From positions 1 through 23,910 of the IMG/VR virus record IMGVR_UViG_3300031857_001383: a stretch of DNA of 23,910 nucleotides; one strand, 5' to 3'. Of this stretch, positions 539-7,637 are shown piece after piece; position 1 is the first letter of the stretch; each line of letters begins with the position of its first letter. The notes beneath the pieces were generated by a model, which worked only from the letters and a program-made list of their open reading frames with translations, was not told the DNA's origin and searched no databases. The position numbers and the translations under genes were made by a program. This DNA is from a virus.

Positions 539-811
539 ATGAAAATCGAAAACCTAAACTCAAAGGCAGTTATCTACACCAACGAGGCAGGGCTTCAAGT
601 AATCGCCCGCCCTTGCTCAGATTGCTCTAACCCTTTAGTGCCAGCCCTTCAATCACTCGACAGTTCACTTTGTAAGCGATGCTACGAAATCCTTTGGAAG
701 ACAGCCGCCAAAAAATCAAAGGTAGTCGGATGTTTGAATTGTGGATACAGAACCACAGACAGCCAAGAGATAGCAGATTGGACAGGTTGCCCCAACTGCT
801 CCAAGAACTAG
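539..811 (+). CDS. Small protein with two zinc ribbons
   Basis: A 90-residue protein, first gene of the early operon. Eight cysteines form four CxxC knuckles: C26/C29, C45/C48, C65/C68 and C84/C87. This is what two treble-clef or rubredoxin-like zinc sites would need, with a basic linker (KTAAKKSK) between them. I choose the ATG at 539 because AGGAAGG lies about 7 nt upstream; an in-frame TTG at 485 overlaps the -10 box and has no ribosome site. The function is not recognised. Zinc-ribbon proteins of this size often bind nucleic acid or host polymerase, but that is inference. Confidence 0.75.
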   Translation: MKIENLNSKAVIYTNEAGLQVIARPCSDCSNPLVPALQSLDSSLCKRCYEILWKTAAKKSKVVGCLNCGYRTTDSQEIADWTGCPNCSKN

Positions 812-816
812 CAAGG

Positions 817-889
817 AGCCTTGACCCGCTGGGGGTTCAAGTGGTTCAATTCCACTCAAGGCACGAGGCAAGGCAACCACGCCGAGCCC
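817..889 (+). ncRNA. Structured RNA element, copy A (three-way junction)
   Basis: Stem P1 GCCTTG (818-823) pairs with CAAGGC (857-862) and encloses two hairpins: P2 ACCC/GGGT (824-827 with 833-836) and P3 AGTGG/CCACT (840-844 with 852-856) with a 7-nt loop TTCAATT. The conserved tail AGGCACGAG follows, then a weak P4 (GGC/GCC, 872-874 with 881-883). Two further copies occur at 1366-1436 and 2267-2338 with different stem sequences but the same plan. It lies in the gap before the coiled-coil gene at 909. P3 resembles a tRNA T-arm, but there is no room for D and anticodon arms. Function unknown. Confidence 0.55.
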
Positions 890-908
890 ACAACGACAGG
901 AGCAACAA

Positions 909-1358
909 ATGCAATACAAAGATATGAACTACACACAGAAGCAAGAGTTCGAGAAGAGCCTAACAATCGGACAGCGTGCAAAAATGCGCCGATTGGAAAA
1001 AGAGTTCAAGGCACAGATTCAGCCAATCAACTGGGCAAGCCACGCAAGAGAAGAAGAAGTTCGCAGAGAGGCTTGGAAGAGCCTAAAAATCGGCGAGCGA
1101 GTCGATGCACTAGAAGCGGCACATTCTCCAAAGATTAACTCTTTGCGCGAGCAGATTGCAGCCTTACAGGAAGAACTAGACAAAACACGCGAAGAACTCT
1201 CAGAAGAGAGAAGCAAGATTCAGAGCGAACCTTGGCAGGTGGCTAGTAATGACCCAGAGGTCAAGGCGATGAATGCAATTTGGCGCAAGACTAAAGAAGT
1301 TCAAGAAATCAAGTTTCAGCAGTTGGTTGATAGTTTCGCCGAAAAGGTGAGCAACTAA
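909..1358 (+). CDS. Coiled-coil protein of unknown function
   Basis: A 149-residue, highly charged and mostly helical protein. Heptad-like stretches rich in E, K, Q and L run from about residue 50 to 110, predicting a coiled coil, and a TRP-containing segment follows. There are no membrane segments or cysteine motifs. The ATG at 909 follows AGGAG with 6-nt spacing. Its C-terminal VSN is encoded by GGTGAGCAAC, a ribosome-binding cassette that recurs at the ends of other genes here; downstream, the next gene is separated by RNA element copy B. I do not recognise the family; a scaffold or regulatory role is possible. Confidence 0.7.
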   Translation: MQYKDMNYTQKQEFEKSLTIGQRAKMRRLEKEFKAQIQPINWASHAREEEVRREAWKSLKIGERVDALEAAHSPKINSLREQIAALQEELDKTREELSEERSKIQSEPWQVASNDPEVKAMNAIWRKTKEVQEIKFQQLVDSFAEKVSN

Positions 1359-1365
1359 TAAAACC

Positions 1366-1436
1366 AGCCTCTCCCCGATTAGTCGGCACAGGTTCACGAC
1401 CTAGAGAGGCACGAGAAGGGGCAACAATGCGCCTTC
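1366..1436 (+). ncRNA. Structured RNA element, copy B (three-way junction plus P4)
   Basis: P1 GCCTCTC (1367-1373) pairs perfectly with GAGAGGC (1404-1410). P2 is CCGA/TCGG (1375-1378 with 1383-1386). P3 is AGG/CCT or AGGT/ACCT (1390-1393 with 1399-1402) with the loop TTCACGA. The conserved AGGCACGAG tail leads into P4, GAAGG/CCTTC (1415-1419 with 1432-1436). Compared with copies A and C the outer four P1 pairs are constant while the inner pairs change on both sides. It lies just upstream of the 56-residue gene at 1459 and overlaps a possible 11-codon leader ORF. Confidence 0.6.
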
Positions 1437-1462
1437 CAACTGATAGGAGAATAAAGAAATGA
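1427..1462 (+). CDS. Possible 11-residue leader peptide
   Basis: A minimal ORF (MRLPTDRRIKK) starts at an ATG preceded by AAGGGG and CAACA, the same spacing style as real genes here. It ends in an ATGA overlap with the gene at 1459. Its start codon lies in the P4 loop of RNA element copy B, so translation could respond to the fold of that hairpin. The ORF is short enough to arise by chance. Confidence 0.25.
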   Translation: MRLPTDRRIKK

Positions 1463-1629
1463 CAAAGAAAGATTACGAACTAATCGCAGAGGTAATCCTG
1501 AACTCTCAAGGCTTAACGCGTGGCGGAGTAATGGACACACTAGCCAAGCGAATGGCAGAAGCGTTAGCGGACACTAACCCTCGTTTCAATCGTGAGATGT
1601 TCCTCAAGGCTTGCGGGGTGAACAACTAA
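1459..1629 (+). CDS. Small phage protein, 56 residues
   Basis: Begins MTKKDYELIAEVI and ends with FNREMFLKACGVNN. This resembles a common small phage protein type with an N-terminal KKDYxLIAxV motif and a C-terminal FxREXFLxACG motif; no biochemical role is known to me. The ATG at 1459 follows AGGAGA at about 8 nt. The stop TAA shares its last A with the next start (TAATG), so the two genes are probably translationally coupled. Confidence 0.7.
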   Translation: MTKKDYELIAEVILNSQGLTRGGVMDTLAKRMAEALADTNPRFNREMFLKACGVNN

Positions 1630-1799
1630 TGAACGCGAGCGAAAAAGCGAAAGCAGATTACAAATATCGCTCCGAGATTTTAACTAACCACTTGCGCCGA
1701 GATGTCTGGCAGACAATCGCAAGAGCGTTAGAACTTAGCGGAAGCATAGGTCTAGCCCAAGACATAAACGAATTCCTAGAGTCAAAGGAGAGCAACTAA
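1629..1799 (+). CDS. Small hypothetical protein, 56 residues
   Basis: A small, mostly helical charged protein (MNASEKAKADYKYRSEIL...), coupled to the gene before by TAATG. The ATG at 1629 is preferred over an upstream in-frame start because the ribosome site GGGGTGAAC lies about 8 nt ahead and the overlap matches its neighbours. It ends with ESN, encoded by the recurring GGAGAGCAACTAATG cassette that supplies the next gene's ribosome site. No family recognised. Confidence 0.6.
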   Translation: MNASEKAKADYKYRSEILTNHLRRDVWQTIARALELSGSIGLAQDINEFLESKESN

Positions 1800-1966
1800 T
1801 GAAAATTACATACTCGCTCTGGCAAGGCTCTCGCCTGTTGTCTATCTATAACACAGCCACCAACATCAAGGAGATTGACGAAGTGGTAACCGAACTCAAC
1901 GCAAGCAACCTAGCAAAAGTTCAGAAGTTCTCAGCGAATATTCAAGAGATAAAGGTGAGCAACTAA
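1799..1966 (+). CDS. Small hypothetical protein, 55 residues
   Basis: Begins MKITYSLWQGSRLLSIYN and ends in KVSN. It starts and stops with TAATG overlaps to both neighbours and is preceded by GGAGAGCAAC. The body reads like a beta-rich start followed by a helix (ATNIKEIDEVVTELNA). No family recognised; accepted on gene-like overlaps, ribosome site and codon continuity. Confidence 0.6.
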   Translation: MKITYSLWQGSRLLSIYNTATNIKEIDEVVTELNASNLAKVQKFSANIQEIKVSN

Positions 1967-2163
1967 TGAAACTATCAACGAAGATAACACTAGGCGCGGG
2001 GGCTGTTGCCCTCGCCCTATTCCTCGCCTCTCTTGTGATTTGGCTTATGGGTCTAGCCTTTAACGGGCTTTATTGGTTAAGCACAGAGGGCGGATGTATG
2101 AAATACACCTTTAGCGAAACGCAACAATTAGACACCTGCGATGTTTACAAGGGGAACAAATGA
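1966..2163 (+). CDS. Small single-pass membrane protein, 65 residues
   Basis: A hydrophobic stretch from about residue 9 to 33 (ITLGAGAVALALFLASLVIWLMG) predicts one membrane helix, followed by a polar tail with two cysteines (C44 and C58) that could form a disulfide if exposed outside. A short basic N-terminus suggests an N-in topology. It is coupled at both ends, by TAATG to the preceding gene and ATGA to the next. Its function is unknown; superinfection exclusion or membrane modification are only possibilities. Confidence 0.65.
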   Translation: MKLSTKITLGAGAVALALFLASLVIWLMGLAFNGLYWLSTEGGCMKYTFSETQQLDTCDVYKGNK

Positions 2164-2252
2164 GCAACGACACATTGACCGCGAGCGCGTGGGCTTTCGC
2201 CCTTGTTCTTGTCCTCTTCGTTTCTTTAATAGACGGGGGCTTCATCTTCTAA
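2160..2252 (+). CDS. Tiny membrane peptide, 30 residues
   Basis: MSNDTLTASAWAFALVLVLF continues as a single hydrophobic helix to the end (VSLIDGGFIF). The start overlaps the upstream stop as ATGA, and AAGGGGAAC lies just ahead. It is too short for most gene finders, but the overlap and the clean membrane helix make it plausible. Together with its neighbour it forms a pair of small membrane proteins. Confidence 0.5.
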   Translation: MSNDTLTASAWAFALVLVLFVSLIDGGFIF

Positions 2253-2266
2253 GTGATAGAACTCAC

Positions 2267-2338
2267 AGCCTCAAACCCTAGACAGAGGGCGCGTGTTCAC
2301 GGCACGATTGAGGCACTAGGTAGGCGAGTGTCCTACCT
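2267..2338 (+). ncRNA. Structured RNA element, copy C (three-way junction plus P4)
   Basis: P1 GCCTCAA (2268-2274) pairs perfectly with TTGAGGC (2308-2314). P2 is CCCT/AGGG (2276-2279 with 2286-2289). P3 is CGTG/CACG (2292-2295 with 2303-2306) with the 7-nt loop TTCACGG. The tail AGGCACTAG is followed by a strong P4, AGGTAGG/CCTACCT (2318-2324 with 2332-2338). This is the best-folded of the three copies. It lies 28 nt upstream of the DUF7249-like gene start at 2367, just before a Shine-Dalgarno sequence identical to that following copy A. Confidence 0.6.
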
Positions 2339-2366
2339 TGCAAGACATCACGACAGGAGCAACAAA

Positions 2367-2690
2367 ATGTGCGAAGAATACAACGGCTGGACAAACAGAG
2401 AAACCTGGGCGGCTAACTTATGGATTGACAACGAACGCGGATTATATGAAGCAGTTCAAGAAGAGGCGGAGCGCATAGCGAAGACGGGAATATCTTTCGC
2501 TTATGTAGAACTAGCGCACTACCTTGAGGAAACAATTGAAGAACTCTTAGATATGGAAGAGGTTCTTTCTGCTCCACCTGCTCAACGCAAGGAACTCATA
2601 AGTATGAGCAAGGACATCGGCTCTCTCTATCGGGTGAACTGGTCTGAGATTGCCAAGAATATTATGAACGAGATAGAGGTGAGCGCATAA
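2367..2690 (+). CDS. DUF7249-like phage protein
   Basis: A 107-residue protein whose N-terminus (EEYNGWTNRETWAANLWIDN) carries the NGWTNRETWxxNLW signature common in phage and plasmid proteins of unknown role (DUF7249 type). The rest is helical and acidic. I choose the ATG at 2367 because GACAGGAGCAACAAA precedes it, exactly as before the gene at 909. The longer frame from 2253 runs through RNA element copy C and is not credible. It ends with EVSA, encoded by the GGTGAGCGCATAATG coupling cassette. Confidence 0.75.
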   Translation: MCEEYNGWTNRETWAANLWIDNERGLYEAVQEEAERIAKTGISFAYVELAHYLEETIEELLDMEEVLSAPPAQRKELISMSKDIGSLYRVNWSEIAKNIMNEIEVSA

Positions 2691-2821
2691 TGACAGCGGA
2701 AAAGTGGTTCATAGTAGAGGGAACAGACCCAGCGGGGCGAAAGTTCCGAGGGATTTATTCCGAAGAAGAAACCGCAGAACTTTTGCGGGATGAAACTAAT
2801 CAACTGATAGGAGAAAAATAA
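2690..2821 (+). CDS. Small hypothetical protein, 43 residues
   Basis: MTAEKWFIVEGTDPAGRKFR starts by TAATG overlap with the previous gene. It has a beta-like first half and an acidic helix at the end (SEEETAELLRDETN). The end of the gene holds GATAGGAGAAAA, the ribosome site for the next gene. No family recognised. Confidence 0.55.
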   Translation: MTAEKWFIVEGTDPAGRKFRGIYSEEETAELLRDETNQLIGEK

Positions 2822-3037
2822 GTGAGCGACTTACGGCAGATAGTTTTCGGAATTAACACGAATGTTTGGCACTTAGTTATTCAGTATGCGGTTTGGTTGT
2901 TGATTATCACAGCCGTTTATTATATCGTGTGGTGGCTGAGTGTAGTAATGAGCGACTATGTAAAGGCGGGTAAGGAAAGAGTCAGGAAATACGAGGAACG
3001 AGAAGCACGCAAACTACTAACGACAGGAGAAAAGTAA
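2822..3037 (+). CDS. Membrane protein with basic coiled tail, 71 residues
   Basis: GTG start directly after the upstream stop, with AGGAG 9 nt ahead. Residues about 17-43 (HLVIQYAVWLLIITAVYYIVWWLSVVM) form one membrane segment rich in aromatic residues, followed by a charged helix (YVKAGKERVRKYEEREARKL) likely in the cytoplasm. Function unknown. It ends at a TAATG overlap with the next gene. Confidence 0.65.
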   Translation: MSDLRQIVFGINTNVWHLVIQYAVWLLIITAVYYIVWWLSVVMSDYVKAGKERVRKYEEREARKLLTTGEK

Positions 3038-3150
3038 TGAGTCTTTGTTGTAATGCTTATATAACTTTCTTTGAATCTACTTTGGTTTGTAAGAAATGTT
3101 ATCAAGAACAAGATATAAAACTACTATTTAAGACAGGAGAAAGTAAATGA
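3037..3150 (+). CDS. Tiny cysteine-rich protein, 37 residues
   Basis: Contains C4-C5 and C18-x2-C21, enough for one small zinc knuckle. Overlaps both neighbours (TAATG upstream, ATGA downstream), and its start follows GACAGGAGAAAAG. Its own 3' end carries the GACAGGAG ribosome site for the next gene. Function unknown. Confidence 0.55.
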   Translation: MSLCCNAYITFFESTLVCKKCYQEQDIKLLFKTGESK

Positions 3151-3419
3151 AAGTAAAAGACCTAATACAAATGCTGACGATAGACTTCTCACCAGACGAG
3201 GAACTAATGGTGCTGTGGTGGGACTCTGCCTACTCTGAACGATTGGCGGGAACGTGGGAGCGAGCAGTAAAAGTCTTTGATGATGGTGGTATATCTACCT
3301 TCACAATGGATGAGCAAATCTCTGAACTGTTATCGGAATCAGAAGAGCAAGTAAGGGCAGAGTTAGCGATTGATTCCTACCTTGAGCAAGAAGACGAGAA
3401 GGAGTTAACTAATGGATAA
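3147..3419 (+). CDS. Acidic hypothetical protein, 90 residues
   Basis: Begins MKVKDLIQMLTIDFSPDEEL, a pattern seen in many small phage proteins in which a short helix precedes a PDEEL-type strand and a hydrophobic core (LMVLWWD). The C-terminal third is very acidic. The start overlaps the previous stop as ATGA and follows AGGAGAAAGTAA. Function unknown. Confidence 0.7.
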   Translation: MKVKDLIQMLTIDFSPDEELMVLWWDSAYSERLAGTWERAVKVFDDGGISTFTMDEQISELLSESEEQVRAELAIDSYLEQEDEKELTNG

Positions 3420-3555
3420 AGTTCAATCAGATTTTTATTGCGGAGATTGCGATAAAGATATGGAAGATGTATGGGCATTTGTTGGCGGAGGCATAGCCGT
3501 TTGGACTTGTCCTGAATGTAAGTATGAACACGAGGGAGCAACCCAACTTGGCTAA
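3412..3555 (+). CDS. Single zinc-ribbon protein, 47 residues
   Basis: Two knuckles, C10-x2-C13 and C33-x2-C36, frame a beta-rich core (VWAFVGGGIAVWT), the classical layout of a one-domain zinc ribbon. It overlaps the end of the preceding gene by 8 nt, with AGGAG 7 nt upstream of the ATG. Such stand-alone ribbons may bind RNA polymerase or nucleic acid, but the role is not shown. Confidence 0.65.
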   Translation: MDKVQSDFYCGDCDKDMEDVWAFVGGGIAVWTCPECKYEHEGATQLG

Positions 3556-3754
3556 GTTTCAGATTACACACAGAATTGAGGGCATACGAGTAACGGAAGT
3601 TACCTTGCCACTTGGCACAGAACTGCCCGAAGATTGGGATACATACGGCAACTTAGATAAAGATGAGTGGCTCTTCGAGCATCAGATTTATTCTAAGGTT
3701 AGATACGAAGATGTAGATTTTGCGGAAGCAAATGCAGTAGAGAGGTTAAGTTAA
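3548..3754 (+). CDS. Hypothetical protein, about 68 residues
   Basis: I choose the TTG at 3548 (MAKFQITHRIEGIRVTEVTL...) because GAGGGAG precedes it at a normal distance, while the in-frame ATG at 3524 has no ribosome site. With the ATG the protein would have 76 residues. The sequence is beta-rich at the start with an acidic end and no cysteines. Its stop overlaps the WhiB-like start as TAATG. Family not recognised. Confidence 0.6.
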   Translation: MAKFQITHRIEGIRVTEVTLPLGTELPEDWDTYGNLDKDEWLFEHQIYSKVRYEDVDFAEANAVERLS

Positions 3755-4101
3755 TGGCGATACCTAACTACCACAGAGAAGCACTATGCGGTAAAGATTA
3801 TGACCCCGACTTGTGGTCTTATATGTGTTCAGTAGAGCGCGATAAGCAACGAGTTATGGTCTACAACATTACAGTTGCCAAGAAGATTTGCGATATGTGT
3901 CCTGTAAAAATGGAGTGTCTAAAGGAAGGGCTACAAGAAGAGAACCTTAAGACACATCAGGGTGAGGGCTTAATATGGGGCGGATTGCTAGTATCTGAGC
4001 GTGCTTTGATGCTTAGAATCTCACCTTATTCAAGGATTGTTAGAGATGAGAGCATACTACGCAGAGAAGTTCAGAAACAATCTGCTAAAATAGGTCAATG
4101 A
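3754..4101 (+). CDS. WhiB-like iron-sulfur transcription regulator
   Basis: A 115-residue WhiB-family protein. The four cluster ligands are visible as C12, C46, C49 and C55 (C-Xn-C-X2-C-X5-C), preceded by the DxDPxxW-like stretch D17-P-D-L-W21. The GLIWGG turn (residues 72-77) matches the family's G[VI]WGG motif. WhiB proteins bind a [4Fe-4S] cluster, dock on region 4 of the actinobacterial principal sigma factor and redirect transcription; phage copies can block the host protein. The family is essentially actinobacterial, so this gene sets the likely host. The C-terminal 35 residues are basic and could contact DNA. It lies 0.9 kb from the convergent phage sigma-factor gene. Confidence 0.9.
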   Translation: MAIPNYHREALCGKDYDPDLWSYMCSVERDKQRVMVYNITVAKKICDMCPVKMECLKEGLQEENLKTHQGEGLIWGGLLVSERALMLRISPYSRIVRDESILRREVQKQSAKIGQ

Positions 4102-4523
4102 GAAAACGTATATTAGTTACCACTATGATAGTGGTCTTACTTGCTGTGGGGTTTCCCCCCACTAAGCAGGTTGACATTGAGGTAAAGGTTAAACAGCACA
4201 AGGAAAAGCCTGAACCATTGCCAACGCAAGCAACTTGGGCTGAGAAGAAAGCCAACAAGAAGATGGCACTAGCCTTCGCTCAAGCAGGGTGGGGATGGAG
4301 CAAACAACAGCAGGTATGTTTGGTGAAATTGTTCACCCAAGAATCTCGCTTCGACCATCTGGCAGACAACCCAGAAAGCACAGCCTTTGGTATCGGTCAA
4401 GTCTTAAGTGAGAAGTCAAGGGACCCTGCTATACAGATACTCAGGGCATACAAATATATCGAGCATCGCTATCAAACACCTTGCAACGCTTACAACCATC
4501 ACTTACGCAGAAACTGGTATTGA
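4098..4523 (+). CDS. Secreted lytic transglycosylase (SLT-like)
   Basis: A 141-residue protein with an N-terminal hydrophobic signal or anchor (residues 4-19), a charged linker and a catalytic domain. E82 in the QES motif is the expected general acid. GIGQ (98-101) matches the conserved G-[LI]-x-Q motif, and the end TPCNAYNHHLRRNWY resembles the TPC-AW-H-GWY tail of actinobacterial resuscitation or aggregation-promoting type transglycosylases. C74 and C129 could form the disulfide seen in that group. It would cleave peptidoglycan glycan strands outside the membrane. It is odd that it sits in the early operon, far from the CHAP endolysin and holin; a role in superinfection, wall remodelling or virion entry is possible. 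Confidence 0.8.
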   Translation: MRKRILVTTMIVVLLAVGFPPTKQVDIEVKVKQHKEKPEPLPTQATWAEKKANKKMALAFAQAGWGWSKQQQVCLVKLFTQESRFDHLADNPESTAFGIGQVLSEKSRDPAIQILRAYKYIEHRYQTPCNAYNHHLRRNWY

Positions 4524-4699
4524 TGTTTGACTTACAGGGAGAGCCGACCTTTGCCTGTATATGTGGTTGTCTTATGTTTGAGATTACTGTAATGTGGGAT
4601 AGAGAAGATAGAACGATAGGCTGGTATGACTTGAAACAAAAGTGTAAAGAATGTGGAACGCTAACAACAGCACCCACCCCGATAGATGGAGAGATGTAA
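4523..4699 (+). CDS. Small zinc-ribbon protein, 58 residues
   Basis: Cysteines in a CICGC cluster near residues 12-16 and CKEC near 42-45 suggest one zinc site around a strand pair (MFEITVMWD). The ATG at 4523 overlaps the previous stop as TGATG; the longer TTG frame from 4481 would run back into the transglycosylase. It overlaps the next gene as TAATG. Function unknown. Confidence 0.65.
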   Translation: MFDLQGEPTFACICGCLMFEITVMWDREDRTIGWYDLKQKCKECGTLTTAPTPIDGEM

Positions 4700-4875
4700 T
4701 GCCAACATATGAATATAGATGTGGTGAATGTAACGCACTACAAGTATTAAGTCGCAACGTAGATAACAGAGATAATGAAGTGCTATGTCCTATGGATTCT
4801 AAGGTAATGGAAAGAGTATGGAACCCAACGCCTACCCACTTTAAGACAGGTGGCTTCTACTCTACGGGGAACTGA
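4699..4875 (+). CDS. FmdB-like zinc-ribbon protein
   Basis: The N-terminus MPTYEYRCGEC is the signature of the FmdB/CxxC small zinc-ribbon family, in which MPxYxYxCxxC is nearly invariant. C8 and C11 are present. The second knuckle is C30-P-M-D33, so the last expected cysteine appears replaced by Asp, and zinc binding may be weak or use Asp. I choose the ATG at 4699 over the longer frame because of the family N-terminus and the TAATG overlap. FmdB proteins have been proposed as regulators, but their biochemical role is unclear. Confidence 0.8.
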   Translation: MPTYEYRCGECNALQVLSRNVDNRDNEVLCPMDSKVMERVWNPTPTHFKTGGFYSTGN

Positions 4876-5033
4876 TGACAAGAGAAGACATACTACAAAT
4901 CCGTGAGGAATATATTTCAAGAAGTAAATCTCACATCGCTACAAACATAATTGAATTAGCCAAGAGATACAAGGTTAGTCAGAATACAATTAGGAAAATT
5001 GCCCTGCGCCAAGTCTATAAAGATGTAGATTAA
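4875..5033 (+). CDS. Small helix-turn-helix protein, 52 residues
   Basis: LAKRYKVSQNTIRKIALRQVYKDV (about residues 28-51) is a helix-turn-helix of the type often found at the C-terminus of phage HNH endonucleases and in stand-alone phage regulators (LAxxYxVSxxTIxxI...W..V). Here it stands alone, so a DNA-binding regulator or a remnant of a homing endonuclease are both possible. The start overlaps the FmdB-like stop as TGATG. The stop shares TTAA with the stop of the convergent sigma-factor gene. Confidence 0.7.
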   Translation: MTREDILQIREEYISRSKSHIATNIIELAKRYKVSQNTIRKIALRQVYKDVD

Positions 5034-6428: not shown

Positions 6429-6794
6429 TCATTCCTCGCCTTCATCCTTAGTTTCCTCTTCTAATAACTTCTTAAGACTTGAATCAAAGTCTTGAAGTGC
6501 TGACTTAATAACCATATCTTCAACGAGTTCATCTATTAAATCATAACCATTCTCAGCAGCGAACAAGGCTACATATGTTGACTGAGTTATATGTTTAATC
6601 TGTTCGGGGTTATCAGCGTTGCCATATAAGAACCTAAGCAATGAACCTAATAATAATTTATATCCACTAGGTAAGGCATAGTAAGGGTCGAACTCTTCAT
6701 CATCATCAAGAACGTGGTCAATTAATTCAAATGAACTATCAAAGACTTTACCACAATCATTACATTGATTGTTTGTAAACTCATCTTCGCTCAA
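6429..6794 (-). CDS. Hypothetical protein with N-terminal zinc finger
   Basis: A 121-residue protein starting with a C2H2-like finger (C11-x2-C14-GKVFDSSFELIDH27), followed by an acidic stretch (DDDEEFDPYY) and helices. The start is a TTG at 6794 that overlaps the primase stop (TTGA); no ATG lies nearby upstream. The very acidic end (LLEEETKDEGEE) could mimic DNA or bind a basic partner. Position next to the primase suggests a replication link, but the function is not recognised. Confidence 0.6.
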   Translation of the reverse strand: MSEDEFTNNQCNDCGKVFDSSFELIDHVLDDDEEFDPYYALPSGYKLLLGSLLRFLYGNADNPEQIKHITQSTYVALFAAENGYDLIDELVEDMVIKSALQDFDSSLKKLLEEETKDEGEE

Positions 6795-7411
6795 TCTATT
6801 CCTGCTTTCTCCTTTATATAACTTGCGCCATACTTTACAAAGGCAGAGTTTACGTCTTCTCCTTCTGGCAATTGCACGATAGTAACGGGGAGTTCCCTAG
6901 CCAGTGAGCGTGCGAATTCCGTGCCTGGTTGGTCGCCGTCTGCGAAGACGAATACTCTTTCAAAGTCCGCAAGTAACCTAGTATAATGTTTCTTCCAAGA
7001 ATTAGCACCAGGAACGCCGATGCAAGGGAAGCCAACACAATGGCTGAGAGTAATAGTATCCAGTTCACCTTCACACACTCCTATGTAATCACCTGCTCTA
7101 TCAATGTCTAAGACATTATACATTTTAGTTTCAGCACCAGTCATACCCATATATTTCGGTTCAACAGCAGGATTAAGACTGCGAAAACGCAAGTCGACAA
7201 CACCAGTCTTGGTAATATACGGTATGGATAATCTTCCTTGGAATGCTTCGTGTCCAACATCAGGCTCTGCGACTACGCCTAATGACATTAGACGCGCTAC
7301 TTCCCTTGTTATTCCCCTGCTTGCTAGGTAGCCTTCTGCCAGATGTATATGCTCCGCGTATTTCTCCGCTGCTTTCCCCAGTAATTCCTTCTGCGATGCG
7401 CTTTGCTTCAC
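6791..7411 (-). CDS. DNA primase, TOPRIM catalytic part
   Basis: A 206-residue protein carrying a full TOPRIM domain: EGELD (114-118) holds the catalytic acid and D158-G-D160 the metal pair, with the usual spacing. Residues 24-45 (LAEGYLASRGITREVARLMS) match the conserved segment between zinc finger and TOPRIM in DnaG- and T7-type primases. It lacks its own zinc finger, which is in the overlapping upstream ORF (7260-7637), one frame away. The GTG at 7411 has GAGAGGG about 9 nt upstream, so independent initiation is possible. Alternatively a +1 shift near the GGGG at about 7380 would fuse the two parts. Confidence 0.75.
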   Translation of the reverse strand: MKQSASQKELLGKAAEKYAEHIHLAEGYLASRGITREVARLMSLGVVAEPDVGHEAFQGRLSIPYITKTGVVDLRFRSLNPAVEPKYMGMTGAETKMYNVLDIDRAGDYIGVCEGELDTITLSHCVGFPCIGVPGANSWKKHYTRLLADFERVFVFADGDQPGTEFARSLARELPVTIVQLPEGEDVNSAFVKYGASYIKEKAGID

Positions 7412-7637
7412 GAAAATCTACCCTCTCTTGTAACTGGACAAGTTGAATACTGTTACCTTGAACACCACAGGCAAAGCAAATGTATATGTTCTTGTCAAGA
7501 TTTGCGCTACCACTTTGGTGTGTGTCGCTGTGAAACGGACACTTAAGGTTAACCTGCCCACGCGTAGCACGCAAGGTCGCGCCGTAATGTATAAGGATGT
7601 CCTTAACTGAAGGTAAGTCGTTATCAATTTTGTGCAT
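7260..7637 (-). CDS. DNA primase, CHC2 zinc-finger part
   Basis: A 125-residue ORF with the primase zinc-binding domain: C33-P-F-H36 and C54-F-A-C57, giving the CHC2 ligand set that recognises template DNA. Homology-like sequence continues to about residue 85 (DFREAKRIAEGITGE). The remaining 40 residues (basic, RRLPSKQGNNKGSS...) look like out-of-frame reading over the start of the TOPRIM ORF. The two ORFs overlap by 152 nt in a +1 relation. The ATG at 7637 follows AGGAG with no spacer, which is poor; an ATT at 7628 would be better spaced but is rare. A split primase, a programmed frameshift or a one-base assembly error are all open. Confidence 0.7.
   Translation of the reverse strand: MHKIDNDLPSVKDILIHYGATLRATRGQVNLKCPFHSDTHQSGSANLDKNIYICFACGVQGNSIQLVQLQERVDFREAKRIAEGITGESSGEIRGAYTSGRRLPSKQGNNKGSSASNVIRRSRRA

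Follow-up and report, generated by a model that had tools for sequence, protein, structure and literature searches.

Transfer RNA (tRNA)-like structures are well known from plant viral RNA ends and from transfer-messenger RNA (tmRNA). Here we describe a series of short tRNA-like RNA elements lying between the early genes of a freshwater actinophage-like contig and of related phages. The contig, the unannotated IMG/VR virus record IMGVR_UViG_3300031857_001383, was analysed over 23,910 nt (23.9 kb), and this whole stretch is called the window. The tRNA-like domain (TLD) of tmRNA has the same acceptor stem, T-arm and GG-bearing D-like region and likewise lacks an anticodon arm, and canonical members of the series are nearly a minimal TLD. 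However, the elements have no CCA, no tag reading frame and no visible alanine identity, they recur in many copies between genes, and ARAGORN reports no tmRNA in the window. The phi80 M3 RNA, the P1/P7 C4 antisense RNA and certain polycistronic mRNAs cut by RNase P are phage or operon RNAs that carry a cleavage signal resembling tRNA (PMC11143913). Each of those is a single site or an antisense RNA, whereas the elements form a repeated, covarying family in successive gaps, and no C4-family match was found in Rfam.

Organelle and archaeal t-elements and tRNA punctuation also place tRNA-like units, which RNase P and RNase Z could cut, between coding units. Unlike these, the elements lie in phage operons, have no anticodon arm, and their cleavage is a prediction. 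Start-associated and extended start-associated sequences (SAS and ESAS) are repeated intergenic elements near actinophage gene starts, and the ESAS of cluster K mycobacteriophages consists of two imperfect 17-nt inverted repeats whose sequence is conserved and which are tied to GGGATAGGAGCCC (PMC12699233). The stems of the elements, by contrast, are 6-8 bp long and vary freely while their geometry is conserved, and they lack the defining features of ESAS. Flaviviral exoribonuclease-resistant RNAs and dicistrovirus intergenic-region internal ribosome entry sites are compact multi-helix viral RNAs and partly tRNA mimics, but no pseudoknot was found in the elements, and hosts, position and helix order differ.

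No description of the element series was found in searches of an open-access paper library, and the cultured-phage records examined carry no RNA annotation of the elements; the intercistronic tRNA-mimic series is likely new. We propose, with the balance about even, that the elements punctuate the polycistronic early mRNA of actinobacterial phages as tRNA-like marks, probably read by the tRNA-end enzymes RNase P and RNase Z. The fuller claim, that a widespread, unrecognised class of anticodon-less tRNA mimics cuts early mRNA gene by gene through the host tRNA-maturation enzymes, is offered tentatively, with the balance leaning slightly against it.

Three copies of one RNA junction

The sequence-only reading of the window had described one architecture in three gene gaps: a stem, P1, enclosing two hairpins, P2 and P3, and followed by a conserved tail and a further hairpin, P4. 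Three copies of this three-way-junction RNA (A, B and C), all on the + strand, were found exactly at the places it gave. The P1-to-P1' spans (818-862, 1367-1410 and 2268-2314) are the 45, 44 and 47 nt that it reported, and the junction of each copy folds as it described. The parts are as follows.

818-867, + strand: copy A, canonical tRNA-like element (fold; sole match of covariance model R2 in the window genome, E=0.003)
818-823/857-862, + strand: copy A acceptor stem, P1 (fold)
824-836, + strand: copy A D-like arm, P2, with loop GCTGG (fold)
840-856, + strand: copy A T-arm, with the 7-nt T-loop TTCAATT at 845-851 (fold)
863-867, + strand: copy A tail, ACGAG
867-888, + strand: copy A P4 hairpin (fold; anchored-stem test)
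1367-1415, + strand: copy B, derived subtype (fold; covariance model R1, 68.9 bits, copy B being one of the ten model sequences)
1367-1373/1404-1410 and 1375-1386, + strand: copy B P1 and P2 (fold)
1390-1402, + strand: copy B P3, with loop TTCACGA at 1393-1399; tail ACGAG at 1411-1415 (fold)
1415-1436, + strand: copy B P4 hairpin (fold; anchored-stem test)
2268-2319, + strand: copy C, derived subtype (fold; R1, E=6.5e-4, copy C not being in the R1 training set)
2268-2274/2308-2314 and 2276-2289, + strand: copy C P1 and P2 (fold)
2292-2306, + strand: copy C P3, with loop TTCACGG at 2296-2302; tail ACTAG at 2315-2319 (fold)
2318-2338, + strand: copy C P4 hairpin (fold; anchored-stem test)

Copy A has a perfect, canonical T-arm (AGTGG-TTCAATT-CCACT), and its innermost P1 pair competes with P3. 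A search of the whole window against Rfam 15 gave no match at the gathering threshold and no credible family below it, in agreement with the earlier statement that the class was not recognisable. Copy A does show a weak, independent Rfam match to an antisense tRNA T-arm/acceptor. Assignment to a known family was rejected, the weak Plastid-ycf2 match only mirroring the likeness of the T-arm to antisense tRNA, and this match was the main clue to tRNA likeness.

Folding of the junction alone beats dinucleotide shuffles only moderately (z of -1.5 for A, -3.1 for B and -3.0 for C). Single-copy folding energy is modest evidence, and comparative data were therefore sought from relatives; these are decisive and confirm that the element is real.

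Relatives and covariation

DUF7249 and MTKKDYE-family proteins, used as anchors, led to ~100 related uncultivated contigs in IMG/VR, and the coiled-coil gene of the window returned the same species only. A descriptor of P1, P2, P3 with the TTCA loop, and the tail gave 34 matches with tail as against 0 in reversed sequence. The covariance model R1, built from ten sequences of the B type, matched ~60 times at E<0.1 among the first 100 loci, every match being sense to early genes, with 1-4 copies per phage at a spacing of ~350-900 bp, with further copies in later sets. Covariance model and scans together yield ~100 distinct relatives in IMG/VR, all on the sense strand.

Alignment of 92 distinct sequences provides the main support for the stems. 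Pairing holds in 94.9% of cells, and 13 of 17 pairs have changed on both sides. The covariation score reaches 0.528, whereas sliding the 3' partners gives 0.02-0.10 (maximum 0.104); because the alignment was fitted to the model, the counts lean towards structure, and the difference is still far beyond that effect. Compensatory changes extend over ~37 distinct P1, 28 P2 and 34 P3 stems. The proposal of a conserved RNA with covarying stems is thus borne out, and the covariance-model search that it called for found relatives on the sense strand.

Several details of that reading change with the wider sample. The outer GCCT/AGGC pairs of P1, which appeared constant, are replaced in relatives (GTCCCCG/CGGGGAC, GCTCCTAC/GTAGGAGC), and P1, given as 6-7 bp, extends to 8 bp. 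The P3 loop, said always to begin TTCA, is mostly YUYRMGR. A tail is indeed present, but the motif AGGCACKAG widens to R-C-[GAT]-[ACG] across the family; the P4 hairpin also exists but is variable and absent from some cultured-phage relatives. The shared GACAGGAGCAACAA at which copies A and C end does occur and is merely a ribosome-binding site.

The tRNA ruler

Anatomy was parsed on 104 distinct elements, mostly 41-63 nt long and with R-C-G/A/U tails. P1 is 6-8 bp and nearly always begins with G-C or G-U, P2 is a hairpin of 2-5 bp, the P2-P3 linker (J23) is 2-4 nt, and P3 is 2-5 bp. The P3 loop is 7 nt in 96 of 104 elements and closed by G-C in 96 of 104. From loop end to tail there are 12 nt in 58 elements, 11 in 43 and 10 in 3 (11-12 in 101 of 104); copies A and B have 11, and copy C and the canonical cultured-phage elements have 12. 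This ruler is constant although P1 varies from 6 to 8 and P3 plus its linker to P1 (P3+J31) from 2 to 6 nt, since the lengths compensate (r=-0.61). The variance of their sum is 0.24 against 0.63 when shuffled, and 0 of 10,000 shuffles were as low, a figure that comes from related sequences and is not a formal probability. Position -1 pairs with 73 in 0 of 101 elements, leaving the helix end unpaired. C occupies position 74 in 94 of 94 elements and position 75 in none, in a set from which non-C 74 had been filtered beforehand (101 of 104 have C at 74 unfiltered), and all 25 canonical elements examined from four cultured phages have R73-C74 without C75. An anchored P4 of at least 5 bp is present in 69% of elements and 17% of shuffles.

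A tRNA has a 7-nt T-loop, G53-C61, 12 nt from C61 to 72, R73 and C74. The element keeps this T-loop-to-discriminator ruler without an anticodon arm or CCA: a 7-nt, G-C-closed loop, 11-12 nt, and then R-C-[not C], fixed across sequence turnover. Acceptor stem, 7-nt T-loop arm and spacing are those of a functional tRNA. The anticodon arm is absent, J23 offering just 2-4 nt in the window family, and position 75 is never C, so no CCA is encoded; ARAGORN calls no tRNA in the window or in the eight relatives checked. Relatives of copy A carry a TGTGG-TTCGATT-CCACA T-arm, with one compensated pair plus a change at R57, and the T-arms of copy A and its relatives are canonical (GTGGTTCRATTCCAC).

Other contacts were also considered. 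Kissing of the P3 and P4 loops (GUUC/GAAC in L105, by eye) is not conserved, and an analysis of mutual information between the loops revealed no clean tertiary contact. The alternative in which P3 forms a 5-bp stem closed by a triloop was rejected: positions 54-60 are U-A, U-G or C-A and never C-G, so a loop motif is likelier. An asymmetry of G-U over A-C mismatches is partly built into the parser and was not used as evidence. A minority of elements have a 7-nt AGCGAGA/AGCGATA loop with the same 12-nt spacing (L144 4749-4801, L165 5300-5353, L152 4126-4176 and L263 3205-3255).

Elements in cultured phages

The canonical T-arm pattern of copy A led to relatives in cultured phages. This pattern followed by GGCACGAG, a tail thereby imposed by the search, returned from IMG/VR 25 ARAGORN tRNAs and dozens of stretches with complementary acceptors not called as tRNA, and many of the stretches examined have a stop codon on one side and a ribosome site on the other. 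BLAST with one element (L321) matched cultured actinophages, mostly at unannotated places. Searching phages by BLAST with either the window or the MTKKDYE protein as query yielded no cultured relative, and the DUF7249 protein gave only partial matches to Synechococcus phage proteins.

Three results support the cultured-phage elements. First, with a second descriptor, in which the tail is merely a small bonus in the score, the right half of VanLee has 16 sense-strand elements at a score of at least 24 as against 0 in reversed sequence; Cafasso, MyraDee and Journey13 behave in the same way, lambda and D29 have none, and the three matches in phiC31 are a real tRNA, a tRNA-like stretch and a chance match. 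Second, in 14 aligned elements 98.2% of cells pair, 8 of 12 pairs are doubly changed, and the covariation score is 0.592 as against at most 0.161 when slid. Third, the covariance model R2, built only from Gordonia and Mycobacterium phage elements, matches VanLee (17), Morgana (10) and Cafasso (9) among Gordonia phages, Journey13 (2), MyraDee (2) and Phlei (1) among Mycobacterium phages, and another IMG record (7), with no match in lambda, D29 or phiC31. Its one match in the window genome is copy A.

All 17 VanLee elements lie in gene gaps, and none of them overlaps a gene. Gaps of 70 nt or more number 17 in the early region of this phage, and an element occupies nearly every one; ~10 of the 17 elements have P4. 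Such arrays, 1-17 repeats along early operons and on the sense strand only, with stem-loops joined by a short linker, would also fit a cis antitermination or protein-binding site on the early transcript, repeated along the operon and akin to HK022 put or lambda nut. We think this distinctly unlikely: one or two such sites are normally enough, whereas here nearly every large gap has an element, and what is conserved is characteristic of a tRNA end, with P4 optional.

Three further observations concern these genomes. A second repeat, CACGGCACCCAAC, stands between P4 and the ribosome site after most P4-bearing elements of the VanLee right half (L408). D29 (L412, 25000-49127) has a gene order like that of Journey13 yet is element-free, so that copy number ranges from 0 to 17 across the actinophages examined. 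In phiC31, an unannotated 86-nt tRNA-like stretch between gp13 and gp14 (L413, 31424-31509) has a canonical D-arm, a T-arm and a 7-bp acceptor.

Placement between genes

The median distance from the upstream stop codon to the start of P1 is 8 nt, most copies having 7-8 nt, and by textbook footprints 7-8 nt past the stop is about the edge of a terminating ribosome. The next ATG lies 34-62 nt past the tail, and the Shine-Dalgarno (SD) sequence is unpaired (mean probability 0.73), leaving the ribosome site open. Sequestration of the SD by P1 was rejected, complementarity occurring in few copies (L105, B) and the SD being mostly free. An intrinsic terminator was likewise rejected, as no terminator-like site was called at the elements and no U tract is present.

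At least 20 unrelated gene families lie downstream of elements. The position 5' of genes could suggest a gene-specific leader, either a riboswitch or an autoregulatory protein site. This explanation is very improbable given the unrelated downstream families, near-identical elements in front of different genes (L025 and L026), the lack of an Rfam match and the lack of consistent ribosome-site sequestration. In these two loci (L025 3377-3470 and L026 4528-4620) a near-identical element and ribosome site precede a DUF7249 gene and a MKVITKSDVKRMRR gene, respectively, a difference that amounts to cassette exchange at the start codon. Among the candidates offered by the sequence-only reading, the tRNA mimic is singled out, with a processing signal as its likeliest use, while the riboswitch is disfavoured because of the many unrelated downstream families and the open ribosome site.

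An uncut intercistronic barrier is a possible but unlikely explanation of this placement. The fold would stop 3' exonucleases or shield the upstream message, like a repetitive extragenic palindromic (REP) element or a phage mRNA stabiliser, with the tRNA shape used only for stability. It starts 7-8 nt past the stop and fills the gap, its sequence varies while its shape is constant, and it does not hide the ribosome site. A plain barrier, however, has no need for a 7-nt T-loop, a compensating 11-12 nt ruler, an unpaired helix end or an R-C-[not C] tail. The canonical T-arm with its YGG-bearing D-like region, resembling the tRNA-like domain of tmRNA, might instead make the element a decoy or factor recruiter that binds the CCA-adding enzyme, modification enzymes, EF-Tu/SmpB or the ribosome for host take-over or counter-defence. 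This is quite improbable, since a decoy does not need a fixed place between stop codon and ribosome site, and the elements have neither anticodon nor CCA.

Two subtypes

Copy A is missed by R1, the B-type model, and copies B and C are missed by R2. Copy A has GG in its D-like loop together with a canonical T-loop, and B and C have neither; as the GG-bearing D-like stretch accompanies the canonical T-loop, B and C are read, with moderate confidence, as a derived subtype that keeps the geometry and not the loop letters. Spacing, tail, flank, placement and P4 are shared, and both subtypes occur together in one operon; the two probably have a common origin. At L121 (304-420) the copy A three-way junction is fused to the copy B P4 and the MTKKDYE gene, with the intervening gene lost, which suggests recombination between elements within the shared AGGCACGAG. 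This hybrid would also fit a feature acting at the DNA level, either recombination repeats for mosaic gene exchange or inverted repeats bound by protein, but such a feature is extremely improbable given the compensatory changes over the many P1, P2 and P3 stems and the sense orientation throughout.

A proposed processing signal

Mimicry, covariation, ruler spacing, tail, placement and presence in cultured phages are established; we infer, in addition, recognition and cutting by RNase P and RNase Z and an effect on mRNA stability. As punctuation marks, the elements would present P1 as the acceptor stem, P2 in the D-arm position and P3 as the T-arm, with no anticodon arm and with R73-C74 followed by G, A or U replacing CCA. 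The host tRNA-end machinery would measure the acceptor/T-arm stack; RNase P would cut before G1, and RNase Z would cut after R73 with no CCA blocking it. CCA is an RNase Z antideterminant, and an element with the ruler, an unpaired helix end and no CCA would therefore be an expected cut site for both enzymes. The tRNA-like piece might be excised or kept as an end. Neighbouring cistrons would be separated, the upstream message being released just past its stop codon, and the downstream mRNA would in most copies start with the P4 hairpin and have its ribosome site open.

The R73-C74-C75 contact of RNase P is incomplete in the elements, R73 and C74 being kept and C75 absent, and this contact is not strictly required in all RNase P substrates. 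The tRNA-length acceptor/T-arm stack with an unpaired -1/73 step, another substrate feature, is present. RNase P reads the T-arm/acceptor stack as a ruler (PMC4919913), cleaves model acceptor/T-arm hairpins (PMC4919913, PMC11143913), and processes some mRNAs as well as the M3 and C4 RNAs of phages (PMC11143913). Antisense action like that of C4 RNA was rejected, as no complementary seed was found among the inverted repeats of the left 5.1 kb of the window.

Several observations weigh against punctuation by tRNA-end enzymes. The tails are without C75, an RNase P contact. T-loop position 58, near-universally A, is C in most freshwater relatives as well as in copies B and C, and AGCGAGA loops occur in rare copies. 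G1 doubles as the final base of a UAG stop codon in one element of Journey13 and one of Cafasso, and a cut before G1 would break that codon. Position -1 is A or C, whereas U is the usual preference of strong RNase P substrates. Of the 17 VanLee elements, 7 have no P4. Finally, the two subtypes are united by architecture, genome context and the L121 hybrid, not by model score.

The presence of members in cultured Gordonia and M. smegmatis phages makes the punctuation reading directly testable. If true, it would explain the puzzling ~100 nt gaps between the tiny genes of these phages and supply a logic by which early mRNA is processed, through tRNA punctuation in a DNA virus that infects bacteria; annotation pipelines would gain a family that tRNA finders miss.

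Genome context of the window

The open reading frames of the window run on the + strand from 539 to 5033 and on the - strand in the remainder. The encoded WhiB-type protein, DnaB-like helicase, primase, sigma-like factor and exonuclease suggest an actinobacterial host; among host genomes, a protein anchor gave only 4 proteobacterial contigs and no actinobacterial host. No promoter-like site was found in the element gaps of the window, so copies A, B and C are probably co-transcribed. The features around them are listed below.

456-485, + strand: likely early promoter, TTGACA-18-GATAAT, 11/12 (consensus match only)
539-811, + strand: small zinc-ribbon-like protein gene upstream of copy A, its stop codon 6 nt before P1 (no Pfam match)
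909-1358, + strand: coiled-coil protein gene between copies A and B (open reading frame and protein domain search)
1459-1629, + strand: MTKKDYE-family small protein gene downstream of copy B (anchor for finding relatives)
2367-2690, + strand: DUF7249 protein gene downstream of copy C (Pfam PF23907, E=8.8e-12)

The left end of the window carries a strong terminator-like hairpin (41-58, - strand), followed by ~480 nt without a clear gene (60-538). The latter stretch closes with the near-perfect promoter at 456-485 and is likely the control region of the early operon. Farther along, at 6791-7637 on the - strand, a DNA primase is encoded in two overlapping reading frames of the phrog_360 and phrog_849 types. 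Journey13 (gp53/54) and MyraDee (gp53/54) likewise encode it in two overlapping frames, and in D29 gp57/58 are adjacent, not overlapping; the two-frame arrangement is possibly a conserved split or frameshifted primase.

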